Assembly (NCBI RefSeq): GCF_964355755.1 | Contig: NC_092679.1 | Coordinates: 3,286,001-3,350,000, forward strand | DNA length: 64,000 nt | From: Antedon mediterranea | Taxonomy: Eukaryota > Echinodermata > Crinoidea > Comatulida > Antedonidae | Direction: 5' to 3' | Shown here: positions 12,422 to 56,945 of the stretch, piece by piece | Layout: each line of letters opens with the position of its first letter | How positions within the stretch are numbered: the first letter of the stretch is position 1 | Translations under genes and position numbers: made by a program | Notes under the pieces: generated by a model | The model's input: only the letters and a program-made list of their open reading frames with translations | Databases searched by the model: none | What the model was told of the DNA's origin: nothing

Positions 12422-29165
<16,744 letters not shown>

Positions 29166-30266: not shown

Positions 30267-31994
30267 TTTATTTATTTATTTATTTGGAATTACACCTTTA
30301 GATCGGTGGCACACTTAGCACAAAGGTGCATCCTTCACAATATAAAATATAACAATTAACAGAAAAGTAAAAAAAGGCAAAAGCAACTATCAACCCCTAT
30401 CCTACCCCCCCCCCCCCCCCAATTTACATCGATACATACAGTAGATCATTACTTTACACAATGAATACAAAACAAGATATAGTAAAAGTGTATAAAATAA
30501 AATAAAATCAGCTGATAAACACAGCTTATTACGAAAAACCCCCAACTCCTCCCTCCCCCCTCCCACTTTTTTTTCAATTTACTTAATGTAGCAATGTAGA
30601 TAACATAGTTATTGAGTCATGGAATTCAGTGAATCATTTCGAAATTGCCATGCTTGTTTTAGGTATCTTTTACAAAAACTATCTAAAATATTTTCACACT
30701 CTTCATCAATTAAATTATCTGAGTATCCCAAAATATATTTAAGTTTGTCATTTTCAGGAGAAGTATAAAAAGTATCAAACATATCTTTGCTGCCATTTCT
30801 ATACATATCCACATATAAATTAAATAATTCCTGATTACGTATATTATTTAAAGCTGGACAATTAAGGATGAAATGATGGATGTCTTCGTCCGAATTTGTA
30901 CCGCACAATTTACATTTTTTATTATTATCAATATTCCAATTTGCAGTTCTATCATTCAAAGGTAGAGTATTTGAACGAGCTTTAAATTTTAATGCAGCAC
31001 CTTCAAAATTAGTTTTATCAATTAAGTAATTTTCAAGTCCAGGTTTTGATTTTAATGTTTCATAGATGTGGAGACTTGATTTATTTTGTAATTCAATTCT
31101 CCATTCATCTATCATTATATAGTTAAGTTTTCTTAAGATTTCAGAAATTGGAAAGTAGACTTCTTTATAATTTGAGAGAGTGGTGAAAATATTTTTGGAT
31201 TCACAATTACACTTCAAGAGAATATCGTTTATACAAGATAGAAACTTATACCTTAAGTCTTTAAATTCACAATTAAGTTGTAGCATTCCAATAAACATAA
31301 TTTTTGGCCATCGATAGTTTTCCATCTTTATAATTCTATGGAAGTATTTCATACGAAGAGCGTTATGAATCTCGTTAATTGGAGACCAGCCAAGCTCTCC
31401 ATATAAGGCGGCACAAGGTGTATTTCGAGGTGCTTTTAAGATATAACGTGCCATTTGGAGCTGGAGACGCTCTAGTTTATCTATATCTATTCTACTTAAA
31501 GAGCACCATACTGAACAACCATAGTTGATAGATGGGAGAACTATCGATCTCCACAGAGTATCCCCATAATATACTCTGTTAAAGTTATCAAAGCTACTGA
31601 TAATTGATTTAACGTACGCTATTAATCTTTGACCTTTTTTTATAACATTCTCAATTTGTATATGGTCATTTAATTTACGAGAAATATGTACACCGAGATA
31701 TTTATATGATTCAGTTTCAGATATAAAGCCATTACCTAATTTCCATTGTCTTACTTTATCAACACGTTTACCAGTTATCAGTATATTTGACTTTTCAAAA
31801 TTAAAGCATAATTTCCATTCCTTAGCAAAATTTCCTGCAAGGTCTAACATTCTTTTCATTTCCAGTTCATTGTTAGCTAATAATACAATATCATCAGCCC
31901 AAAAAAGGCTACCCATCCATGTATCATTTATTCTAATACCTATATCCTTGGATCTTAACATTTTGGTAAACTCATTTAGTGTATTCTGCCTGTA
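30267..31994 (-). mobile_element. 5'-truncated non-LTR retrotransposon (ORF2 3' half)
   Basis: A 450-codon open frame (31961-30609), open back to a stop at 31995-31997, encodes the C-terminal half of a reverse-transcriptase polyprotein. It contains IGIRINDTWMGSLFWADDIV (the F/YxDD catalytic motif as WADD), FEKSNILITGKR, YLGVHIS, a thumb region, then a C-terminal CxxC...H...C cluster near CKLCGTN. The 3' UTR ends in an (AAAT)n tail at 30267-30286. Fingers, endonuclease and ORF1 are missing, so it is a dead-on-arrival copy, though its frame is uninterrupted, which suggests a fairly recent insertion. Clade not certain (Jockey/CR1-like). Confidence 0.85.
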
Positions 31995-50912: not shown

Positions 50913-53900
50913 CTATAGTTTTGATCCTATATCCCTCTCATGTACAACCATAGGCGAAACAATTTCTTTCGTCGTGGAGCAACCTAGAAATGATAACAAG
51001 TTAGGCTTATAAATGAAATACATTGCACTATAATGTACGGAATAATGCTCGAAAGGCGCTGCGTGTACGTGTTGATAAAGCTTGGTTCTCAATTGGACGC
51101 ACGCAAGTCTGAGTTGACCAATCACAAACGTTTATTCGTTCGTCTATCACGTCACGATTGGTCAAATTACTTGCGGTGTGCTTACGTCCTTGCGCTGCGT
51201 CCAAAGTGGGAACCACTGCTTTAATAATACTATACGGTGGTACGTGAATAACAACTTACCCATAAATGCCATAGCTGTTGAAAACTCGTCTTTGAGAATA
51301 TCAATAACTTGACTAACGCCCTCATGGCCCTAAAAACGGATAAGAAACATGTAGCTTTTTTCCGTACGTGAATTCGTAACTCAATCGCAACCGTGTTAAT
51401 TACCGTGACAATATAGATCAACGAATTTTGAATTAAAAATAAAGGTAGTTAGTGTCAAAGTGAGTGAATAACAACAACATAAAATAATAAAAAACATTAA
51501 AAATATTAATATAAAACAACTGGTCTCTTAATCTTACGTTGCACGCGAGGCCCCAAATTAGCGGTCGTCCAATGAAAACCGCTCTTGCACCGCGCGCTAA
51601 AGCTTTAAGAACGTCAGTTCCGCGTCGTACTCCTCCGTCCATGTATACCTCAACGCCAGATCCCTCGACGGCAGCAACGACCTCAGAAAGAACATCAATC
51701 TATAAATATTCAATCCGTTATAATCGATTAAACATTTATCTATATTCGCCCCTCAATCCCATCGCTCTAATTTTGAAAGTAACGATCGGTGTGCATGGCC
51801 ATAAAAAACAATCGACGTTAGGTGAAAAGTAGTGGACACAGCGCAATGACGTCGTAAGCGCTCCGCAATCAAGAATATCACATAATAATTTGCTTTTTAT
51901 TGATCAACTCACTTGCCTTGCGCCTACGGAGACGGACGTCGTTGCGTCCTAGTGGGAACAAAGTTTTAAGATCACTATGTACGTTATTGCTTGTATGCTT
52001 CGTTCCCAACCACGCAACACAAGAACGTAAAGCTTGGTTCCCACTAGCGACGCAATACAAGGACGTAACGCAACGCAAGTGAATTGACCAATCACAAGCG
52101 ATGGTTTATTCGCTTGTGATTGCTAACTGTCTATAACTTCGCTTGTCATTGGTTAAAACACTTGCGTTGCGTTTACGTTCTAGTGGGAACCAAGCTTTAG
52201 TAAGCACAACGCTTTGCTTTTGGTTGGTCAACTCGCCTGCGTTGCGTCTACGTCATTGCGTTGCGTCTCTAGTGGAAACCACTAGTAGATAACGTACCGT
52301 AGCAGGTAGGTAATCGAATTGTCTGCCCCCATGATTTGAGACAAGAATTGCATCAGCACCGTTATGTACAGCACGTTTTGCATCAGCACCTGTCATAGAA
52401 AATTCAACCATAATATTATAAAGTTATTACTATAAAATATTCAAAATCTACCATGTGAAACCACCGTAAATCTATTCTACCGGGAATTTAAAAAATAAAG
52501 ATTGTAGTTTTAAATATAAAGTTCTGTCTACACTATCAAACCAGTTTCACAAAAATGTGTGATGTGCCCAAATATGGAAATGATGTAATATCACCGTGTC
52601 CATATATGGACACACATTAAATTTTTTGTTACCTAAAGTTTGATTAGACAGAGCTTAAGAGATATAATGGTTTTGAATTTAGGTCTAAAACGCCTTAATA
52701 GAACCAAGGCATTACAACAGGACACACTGAGCTCCAAGATAGGAACTCGTAACAGTCTTTTGATCTTACGTCTGGCTGCGACAAATACCAACAGTACTGT
52801 ACTATAATTTACATATTCTCTGTTAAAGCTTGGTTCCCACTAGTAGGACGCAATGCAAGAACGTAAGCGCAACGTAAGTAATTTGAACAATCACAAGCGA
52901 TGAATTATTCGAACTGTCGCTTGTCATTGTCCAATTCGGTTGTGTTTCGACTATACGTCCTTGCGTTATGTTCTAGTGGGAAACAAGCTTAAGGGGCGTT
53001 GAACTGATCGTGTCGCAGCAACAGATAAACCCTTTGATCTCGGGATCATGTTAGATTGCCTTGATAACATACCAGTGAGAATACCCTTGACGACTATCGG
53101 TAGACTAGTTATAGATTTCAGCCATCTAAGATCTTTCCATGTAGCCGTACCGTCAATTTGGTTGTCTATAACTTGGATGTCTGCTGTGTCTATATACTTC
53201 AAATTTATGGGTCTAGAAATACAATACATGGTAGGGTGTAAAAAAAATGTTTAGTGTCGTAGTTCAGTGGTCGTTTAGAAGCAAGAATCAACTAATTGTT
53301 CGTTTCTCTCAGTTTCACCAATGCGTCACCAACCTGCGCCCTTCATCATTGCCTAAACCTCTAGTACGGGGCAATGTAAAAACATTACTAAAATATATCT
53401 CCGTTAAATGGCCATGGAGTACGAGGAGCCGTTCGGGACATTGCTAATTTTGTCGTCAGTCTGCACAGTTTTTGTCCTAATAGAATCAATTATGTGTTTA
53501 ATTTTGTCGACGAAATTATTAATTTCCCGAACGGCGCCCCGCTCGAGGACTATTCACGTATACAATATATTTTAGTCCGTTTTTTCTCCTGTAGAACCGA
53601 CACGACTGAAGTGATGATGTGAACATCGTCGCTTCGAAAACGGCGACACAAACAAAATGAATGAACAACCTCAAGTGTGATTCTAGTTGAATCCCTAGGC
53701 CCTGCTTGTCGTACTTGGTTGTTAATTTTCTCTTTGGTATCGGCTGGTCAACGGTCACAACGATGGCTTTAAAACCAGCAGCAACCGCTCGTCTTACGAT
53801 GTTTTCTGTGATTCGTTTATCCTTCAACAACTGAATCTGCATCCAGTAAAGACCGTTTGGTGCCACATCTACAATATCCTCAATTGTATTTGTTGACCAT

Positions 53901-54991
53901 ATGCTCAAAATCATCACTATGTTGCTTGGTATTGAAGCTGAAAATTAATTAAACTTATTATAGGTCCCCACTTGGACGCAATAAAAGAACGAGGCGCAAC
54001 CCACTGATATACGTTACTTTACTTTACGATTTAAATGGCATTCTTCAATATAACAATACATCATACCTTTAGCTAAGGCCTTCTCACCATCTTCATGTGC
54101 CATTTTGAGGAAACCAGTTGGTGACATGCCAATGGGACACGCCACAGGTTGCCCGAGCACAGTGGTCCTAACATCAATATTTGAGACGTCACGGAGAACT
54201 TGGGGTAGAAAACGATACCTGAAAGAGTACGGATTTTGGGTCAAGTTCACACTAACGAGGCAACGTAGCGCAACCTACGCAATGTAAGAAAATGTCCTTC
54301 CAATAATTTGTGTTTGCCCGCCTGCGTGAAATAAAAAATCTGTGATGTTTGTAGAACTATTGCGTCGTCGGCCACGCAATAAAGCACTTTGCGTCAATAC
54401 GTCGTAGCGTTGCGTCGCTATGGGAACCACGCTTTACGACGTAGGCACAACACGCACGTGAGTTGACCAATCACAAGCGACAGTTCGGATGATCTATCGC
54501 GTCGATTGGTCAAATGAGTGCGTTGCGTCCAAGTGGATATCAGGCCGACCTTTAAGAGCAGAAATAAGTAAAAAATAACGGACCACCACAACAGTTCATT
54601 CACCAGCAAACAGACGGTGTCAACATAAAAAGTTCGAGATCAACATAAAAAAACAGAATGTTTACAAAATTAACTGTAAAGCTTGATTCCACGCATCGCA
54701 AGCGACTTGACCTGGTTAAATCACTTACGCCCTTGCGCTTTGTCCTAGTGGGAACCAAGTTTTAAAGCGTGTTGCGCGTACGTGCACTCCTTGCGTGCGG
54801 CGTCCAAAAGCTAGAATTAAGTAATTAAAACTTCATAATAACCTTCGAAAAGCTTCTACGTTATCCTTCATTGTGGTCATTTCGTTACAACCACCAAAAA
54901 TATATCCCTTGTAAGAACCTTTAATTTTAGAGAAAGCTGCTTTTTTAAAGTCTTCCAATGAAGCATACTTGGTCTGCTGGGGCCTAGCCAT
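50913..54991 (-). CDS. HAO1: Peroxisomal FMN-dependent 2-hydroxyacid oxidase (HAO1-like, divergent), 8 exons, complete
   Basis: Family reaction: FMN-dependent oxidation of L-2-hydroxyacids (glycolate, long-chain hydroxyacids) to 2-oxoacids with H2O2, in peroxisomes. Exons: 54991-54843, 54218-54067, 53937-53670, 53212-53073, 52389-52298, 51699-51538, 51329-51260, 50983-50913; phases join to 367 aa (human HAO1 is 370). Family motifs: [20 protein letters not shown], Trp114 in LSIWST, TVD with Asp164, Lys in [15 protein letters not shown] with catalytic His256 and Arg259, [14 protein letters not shown] and [10 protein letters not shown]. The C-terminus is GSKL, a canonical PTS1. Oddities: the active-site Tyr equivalent to spinach Tyr24 is Gly29, the Tyr129 equivalent is Gln136 (QIQLLKDK), and the Arg164 equivalent is Lys171 beside Arg170. 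The fold and flavin site look intact, but the substrate may differ from glycolate. Confidence 0.93.
51077..51222. mobile_element. Family B MITE in HAO intron 7
   Basis: AAGCTTGGTTCTCAATTGGA at the left, GTGGGAACCACTGCTTTA at the right. The interior is TTGACCAATCACAAACG and its inverse. Confidence 0.7.
51938..52290. mobile_element. Family B MITEs in HAO intron 5, one full length
   Basis: The complete copy 52030-52197 (168 bp) has ends AAGCTTGGTTCCCACTAG and CTAGTGGGAACCAAGCTT and is flanked by TA. Fragments on either side (51938-52027, 52200-52280) carry the same ends and the GACCAATCACAAGCGA-type arm. Confidence 0.8.
52520..52655. mobile_element. Palindromic MITE, family A, in HAO intron 4
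   Basis: Arms AGTTCTGTCTACACTATCAA and GTTTGATTAGACAGAGCT, flanked by TAA on both sides (52517-52519, 52656-52658). Confidence 0.75.
52825..52990. mobile_element. Family B MITE in HAO intron 4
   Basis: AAGCTTGGTTCCCACTAGTA to TTCTAGTGGGAAACAAGCTT, with the same internal arms as the other family B copies. Confidence 0.75.
54240..54800. mobile_element. Degraded family B MITE fragments in HAO intron 1
   Basis: ACGTCGTAGCGTTGCGTCGC...GGGAACCACGCTTTA, TTGACCAATCACAAGCGA and CCTAGTGGGAACCAAGTTT occur at several points. A further scrap (53960-54003) lies in intron 2. Confidence 0.6.
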
Positions 54992-55608: not shown

Positions 55609-55735
55609 TAAAATAATAATTTATTAAATAATAAACCGAACAAAAATCATAATACAGTAGCTATATACAGTAGCCTATTTTCCTCGTTTTTGTATACAAA
55701 AATTAAAAGAACGTTAGGAAATTAACCAACCAACC

Positions 55736-56945
55736 AACCACTGGTTGCAATGTACAACCACTGGCTGCGATGTGCGACCACTGGCTGCCGCGTACAATCA
55801 CTGGCTACGATGTGCAACCACTGGCTGCGATGTACAACCACCGACTGCCGCGTACAACCACTGGCTGCGATATACAACCACTGACTGCCGCGTGTGCAAA
55901 CACTGGCTGCGATGTGCAAGCACTGTCTGCGATCTACAATCACTGACTGCCGCGTGCAACCACTGGCTGCGATGTGCAACCACTGGCTGCGATGTGCAAC
56001 CGCTGGCTGCGATATGCAACCGCTGACTGCCGTGTAAAATCACTGGCTACGATGTGCAACCACTGGCTACGATGTACAACTACTGACTGCCGCGTACAAC
56101 CACTGACTGCCGCGTGCAACCACTGGCTGCAATGTACAATCACTGACTGCCGCATGCAACCACTGGCTGCGATGTGTAACCGCTGGCTGCCACATGCAAC
56201 CGCGTGCAACCAATGACTGCCGCGTACAACCACTGGCTGCCGCGTGCCACCACTGGCTGCCGTGTACAACCACTGACTGCTACAGTATGTGCAACCACTG
56301 GCTGCCGCGTGCAACCGCTGTCTGCGATGTGCAACCACTGGCTGTGATGTGCAACCACTGACTGCAATGTACAATCACTGACTCTCGCGTCAACCACTGA
56401 CTGCAATGTGCAACCACTGGCTGCGATCTACAACCACTGACTGCCGTGTGCAACCACTGGCTGCGATGTGCAACCGTTGGCTGCCACGTGCAACCGCTGG
56501 CTGCAGCATGCAACCAATGACTGCCGCGTACCACCACTAGCTGCCGCGTGCCACCACTGGCTGCCGCGTGCAACCACTGGCTGCCGCGTGCAACCACTGA
56601 CTGCTACAGTATGTGCAACCACTGGCTGCCGCATGCAACCGCTGGCTGCGATGTACAGCCACTGACTGCAATGTACAGCCACTGACTGCCGCGTCAACCA
56701 CTGACTGCGATGTGCAACCACTTGCTGCGATCTACAACCACTGACTGCCACGTACAACCACTAGCTGTCGCGTGCAACCACTGGCTGCGATGTAAAACCA
56801 CTGCCTGCCAAATGCAACCACTGGTTGCGATAAATACAACCACTGACTGCTATGTGCAACCACTGGCTGCGATGTGCAACTGATGGCTGCCACGTGCAAC
56901 CGGTGGCTGCCGCATGCAACCACTGGCTGGGCTGCAATGTCTAAC
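55736..56945. repeat. 20-bp minisatellite, about 60 copies
   Basis: The unit is CAACCACTGGCTGCGATGTG with variants ACTGACTGCCGCGT. Because 20 bp is not a multiple of three, several frames are open on both strands and encode artefactual Ser/Gln/His/Trp-rich peptides. It lies between HAO and ENTPD. Confidence 0.95.

Follow-up and report, generated by a model that had tools for sequence, protein, structure and literature searches.

The window analysed here, a 64,000-nucleotide stretch of the Antedon mediterranea genome, contains a gene of the hydroxyacid oxidase (HAO) family whose product departs from its relatives at residues that contact the substrate. The question this locus raises is whether the product is still an ordinary 2-hydroxyacid oxidase, acts on some other substrate, or has lost most of its activity.

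The gene and its surroundings

The gene lies on the minus strand at positions 50913-54991 of the window. Spliced alignment divided it into 8 exons totalling 367 codons, with GT-AG boundaries at every intron. The exons are listed below, with the equivalent residue of spinach glycolate oxidase (GOX), as defined by a 91-sequence MAFFT alignment, in brackets.

54843..54991, minus strand: exon 1, start codon at 54991, codon TAT of Tyr30 at 54902-54904
54067..54218, minus strand: exon 2
53670..53937, minus strand: exon 3, Trp114 (W108), Gln134 (Q127), Gln136 (Y129; codon CAG at 53831-53833), Asp164 (D157), Gln165 (T158), Lys171 (R164) and Thr174 (D167)
53073..53212, minus strand: exon 4, remainder of loop 4, Lys232 (K230)
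52298..52389, minus strand: exon 5, catalytic His256 (H254) and Arg259 (R257), motif SNHGGRQ
51538..51699, minus strand: exon 6, FMN phosphate-binding region
51260..51329, minus strand: exon 7
50913..50983, minus strand: exon 8, C-terminal SKL (PTS1-type) and stop codon

No frameshift, internal stop codon or non-canonical splice site was found in the gene by spliced alignment, and the frame closes with G-SKL and a stop. The Pfam domain FMN_dh (PF01070) covers residues 23-356 of the protein (E 2.9e-115; score 385.5 bits, cut-off 24.9), and the best phmmer matches among solved relatives were human HAO1 (E ~4e-93), rat HAO2 (~6e-88) and spinach GOX (~1e-86). Both the gene structure and the domain agree with the preliminary description, made from the sequence alone, of a complete 367-aa HAO-family protein ending in SKL. 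The SKL and the residues retained are consistent with a protein that would be peroxisomal and flavin-bound.

A short palindromic element (ACGCAA...TTGACCAATCACAAGCGA or its inverted copy), likely a non-autonomous mobile element, recurs in the introns, for example at 52067-52173, 52849-52911 and 54429-54500, and is also present, up to 90.7 % identical, in introns of a paralogue, L031. Just upstream of the gene, at 55735-56929, is a tandem array of ~60 copies of a 20-base unit (CAACCACTGGCTGCCATGTG). Elsewhere in the window, on the minus strand, are an open frame at 28407-29165, in which one exon encodes an SH3 domain and, after it, the first half of a protein kinase domain (a layout that looks mixed-lineage-kinase-like), and a retroelement remnant at 30612-31994, with the end of a reverse transcriptase and a zf-RVT domain.

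Active-site residues retained and replaced

His256 (His254), Arg259 (Arg257), Asp164 (Asp157) and Trp114 (Trp108), all claimed previously, were each found in the MAFFT alignment, as was Lys232 (Lys230), and the equivalents of Ser106, Gln127 and Thr155 are also retained. The catalytic base of the family is a histidine, the homologue of which is kept in this protein, and Trp108 has been described as specific to glycolate oxidases, the W108S substitution in spinach GOX lowering kcat 500-fold (PMC10153336).

The preliminary description also held that two substrate tyrosines had been lost, with Gly29 replacing Tyr24. However, GOX Y22-D23-Y24-Y25 aligns with K28-G29-Y30-I31, and Tyr30 is opposite Tyr24 in the MAFFT alignment. 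The phmmer alignment to human HAO1, which is gap-free from residue 12 past 180, places Tyr30 opposite HAO1 Tyr26, the homologue of GOX Tyr24. As Gly29 occupies the Asp23 position, the first supposed loss was a one-residue alignment slip, and one substrate tyrosine is missing, not two. A tyrosine alignable at either position had been named as evidence against the double loss, and Tyr30 is such a residue at position 24. Position 24 is Phe in rat HAO2 in our alignment, and Phe is named at this position in LCHAO (PMC10153336), so a change there would in any case have been nothing unusual.

The two other replacements stood: Gln136 is at the Tyr129 position in both the phmmer and the MAFFT alignments, and Lys171 is at the Arg164 position in the latter. 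Two changes not reported earlier were seen in the alignment, namely Asp167 to Thr174 and Thr158 to Gln165, the latter adjacent to the catalytic aspartate. From family numbering, the second tyrosine of the lactate oxidase Tyr/Tyr/Arg triad is presumably the Tyr129 homologue. In that triad the first tyrosine and the arginine hold the carboxylate, and the second tyrosine is on the C2 oxygen (PMC4908395). The earlier assignment of Tyr24, Tyr129 and Arg164 all to carboxylate binding is thus correct only in part, as the Tyr129 equivalent touches the C2 oxygen and Arg164 is a mobile residue, the homologue of which in flavocytochrome b2 binds, in its distal position, the invariant aspartate D292 (PMC10153336). 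From the +3 spacing, Asp167 would be the residue homologous to D292.

The conservation of these positions was assessed using 80 microbial relatives, kept among the matches listed when bacterial and archaeal genomes, one per species, were scanned. With spinach GOX, human HAO1 and rat HAO2, the only other eukaryotes included, and the two genes of the C1 pair described below, these are the 85 sequences of the alignment outside the clade of six C10 paralogues to which the window gene belongs. Among the 80 microbial relatives (among the matches listed), position 129 is Tyr in 78, Phe in one and Thr in one, position 164 is Arg in 78 and Lys in two, and Gln is absent from the states listed for position 158. 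In all 85 (microbes among the matches listed), Tyr129 is found in 83 (98 %), Arg164 in 83 and Lys164 in two. There are 38 columns conserved in at least 95 % of these sequences (microbes again among the matches listed); the window protein matches 36, and its only two departures, at the substrate-pocket positions 129 and 164, are not what random decay would produce. With Gln129 in none of the 80 microbial relatives (among the matches listed) and in 6/6 C10 paralogues, the pattern is, judged from these sequences, more than chance. The rarity of Gln129 is shown for the sampled microbes (among the matches listed) and the three eukaryote references rather than for animals at large.

The motif G[VL][RY]WMQ[VI]Q detected no relative with Gln129 among the same 80 (among the matches listed), and a viral scan found no relative of the window protein. 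Acquisition from a microbe or virus carrying Gln129 is therefore unsupported.

Paralogues, phylogeny and selection

A PF01070 search of the genome itself (354 Mb, 18 contigs) yielded 36 exon matches that were assembled into eight genes.

3.336-3.341 Mb: window gene, C10
3.455 Mb: C10 gene
13.42 Mb: C10 gene
13.43 Mb: C10 gene
17.485 Mb: C10 gene
17.49 Mb: C10 gene
Contig C1, 20.96 Mb: two HAO1-like genes, C1a and C1b (L036 and L037)

Gln129 and Gln158 are common to all six C10 proteins, and position 164 is Lys in five and Asn in the 3.455 Mb copy. The catalytic and FMN residues His, Asp, Arg and Lys are intact in all six. Trp108 is found only in the window copy, the others having Phe, Val or Leu. 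The C1 pair has both Tyr129 and Arg164 in the MAFFT alignment, from which part of their poorly defined loop-4 exon was excluded. In C1a and C1b the His/Arg motif reads SNHGGRAL, with Ala replacing a near-invariant Gln (GOX Gln258).

The presence of Gln129 in all six C10 copies rules out a private mutation of the window gene. Some copies encode it by CAG and others by CAA, hence the residue has outlived synonymous change. It is extremely improbable that the substitution is an artefact of a wrong exon 3, an assembly error or a pseudogene, for which no evidence was found, since six separate copies have this Gln in the corresponding exon, encoded by differing synonymous codons, and a change from Tyr (TAY) to Gln (CAR) requires two base changes. 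A pseudogene or a missed exon is likewise ruled out by the open frame and canonical splice sites together with the recurrence of Gln.

In a maximum-likelihood tree of 41 proteins, the six C10 proteins form one clade (support 100/100), within which the 3.455 Mb copy is the partner of the window gene (97/92). Human HAO1 groups with the C1 pair (94/90) and not with the window gene. The C10 clade adjoins rat HAO2, the single HAO2 sequence included, with weak support (88/42), which would place the window protein weakly on the HAO2 side. The earlier suggestion of a lineage-specific branch is supported, at least within the Antedon mediterranea genome, as Gln129 is common to the six members of the C10 clade and the HAO1-like pair has Tyr. 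A literature search on echinoderm HAO expansions found nothing relevant.

The window gene is under purifying selection. Compared with the 3.455 Mb copy, dN/dS is 0.30 for the whole coding sequence and 0.25 once exon 6 is excluded (dS 1.5). Exon 6 aside, constraint relative to the nearest paralogue is strongest in exon 5, which encodes the catalytic His and Arg (pN 0.12, pS 0.82). Faster evolution of the window copy was considered, and is weakened by the relative-rate counts (37 vs 32, chi-square 0.36).

Exon 6 differs from the other exons. DNA identity between 51538-51699 of the window and 5213-5374 of L031, the nearest paralogue, is 93.6 %, far above the other exons, and 8/54 third positions differ (dS 0.21), with the other exons near synonymous saturation (dS at least 0.9). 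The match ends within ~5 bases of the exon boundaries, and this looks like single-exon gene conversion.

The C-termini also vary, with SKL in the window protein, CKL in the 17.485 Mb copy and SRL in both C1 genes. Those of the remaining four C10 copies (L031, L033, L034/L035 and L032/L038) are YYY, TVL, TVL and QAL, with no recognizable PTS1, and a change of cell compartment among the C10 paralogues is possible.

Possible substrate and activity of the Gln129 proteins

By sequence, the window protein shares the FMN_dh fold of spinach GOX (1GOX) and human HAO1 (2RDT, 2RDU), to which it is 42 % and 46 % identical, respectively. It has their Tyr24, Trp108, Asp157, Lys230, His254, Arg257 and PTS1, but differs from them in having Gln for Tyr129, Gln for Thr158, Lys for Arg164 and Thr for Asp167. 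Unlike the window gene, the C1 genes sit with HAO1 in the tree. Rat HAO2 (1TB3, 3SGZ), a long-chain 2-hydroxyacid oxidase, shares a peroxisomal signal, the weak grouping noted above and a loop 4 of similar length (48 residues, 50 in the window protein). However, positions 24, 108, 129 and 164 are Phe, Tyr, Tyr and Arg in HAO2 and Tyr, Trp, Gln and Lys in the window protein. Lactate oxidase, lactate dehydrogenase and MftD have the homologous FMN_dh barrel, but scores with their NCBIfam models are far under the curated cut-offs (e.g. MftD, 231.8 vs 470.85).

The reading we prefer, which we consider to have about an even chance of being correct, is that the window gene encodes a peroxisome-targeted FMN flavoprotein of a six-paralogue clade with a Gln/Gln/Lys pocket, the preferred substrate of which is neither glycolate nor lactate. 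In the common ancestor of the C10 paralogues, Tyr129, the C2-oxygen contact, would have been swapped for glutamine and a second glutamine placed beside the catalytic aspartate, at position 158, and in most copies the mobile Arg164 of loop 4 would have become lysine. The window protein would still bind FMN, His256 with Asp164 would still remove the substrate hydrogen, Arg259 and Tyr30 would still hold the carboxylate, and the reduced flavin would yield H2O2. With both the C2-oxygen contact and the loop-4 gate altered, the pocket would be re-tuned, most likely for another, perhaps longer, 2-hydroxy acid, and ordinary glycolate oxidation is probably left to the two HAO1-like C1 genes. As Tyr129 was replaced by Gln with the catalytic machinery kept, the C10 proteins probably have substrates other than the usual hydroxy acids. 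The earlier proposal that the window protein uses a different substrate or is impaired with glycolate appears reasonable. Several points count against the preferred reading: Trp114, at the position described as GOX-specific (PMC10153336), is retained and could hint at small substrates; Asp167, the putative holder of the mobile arginine, has also been replaced (Thr174); the HAO2-side placement is weak; and a published activity screen, described below, predicts low activity on standard substrates.

A second reading is that this is an ordinary 2-hydroxyacid oxidase, in which Gln129 and Lys164 provide contacts equal to those of Tyr and Arg and the usual HAO1 or HAO2 substrates are oxidized more slowly. 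Gln and Lys could supply equivalent hydrogen bonding or charge at these positions, and the window copy keeps the remaining contacts and Trp108. However, with Tyr129 98 % conserved in 85 members of varied subfamilies (among the matches listed), an equivalent replacement must be rare, and even the change of Tyr129 to Phe is said to cause a strong drop in kcat in spinach GOX and flavocytochrome b2. This reading is quite unlikely.

An impaired or non-catalytic protein, folded and FMN-binding but with little oxidase activity and retained for something else, for example to bind a ligand or to partner other subunits in an oligomer, is also unlikely. In a screen of FMN_dh proteins with a standard substrate panel, 8/10 inactive proteins lacked one or more of a conserved set of seven active-site residues, a set that was complete in 12/14 active ones, the other two active proteins also lacking one (PMC8491902). 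Loss of such a residue therefore predicts low activity on standard substrates, and this keeps impairment alive as an explanation, as do the replacement of both members of the gate pair, Arg164 and Asp167, in the window protein and the missing PTS1 in 4/6 C10 members. Against it, the window protein has His256, Asp164, Arg259, Tyr30 and Lys232 intact, and the His, Asp, Arg and Lys are common to every C10 copy, whereas some of these residues should have been lost had catalysis ceased to matter. The strong constraint on exon 5 also counts against this explanation.

Beyond the re-tuned pocket, the Gln129/Gln158/Lys164 family might have a substrate class or transition-state arrangement new to FMN-dependent 2-hydroxyacid oxidases, with some copies acting outside the peroxisome; we regard this as somewhat unlikely. 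The C10 clade represents variation within a known enzyme family, not a new kind of system. A duplicated metabolic enzyme has here departed from an almost invariant active site, the ordinary version of which is retained in the HAO1-like copies. Laboratory mutants such as Y254F and Y129F have been used to study the role of the family tyrosine in the transition state and in the choice between hydride and carbanion routes. The six C10 genes lack Tyr129 naturally but retain the base and the arginine for the carboxylate, and would provide an evolved set of proteins in which to ask what replaces this tyrosine.
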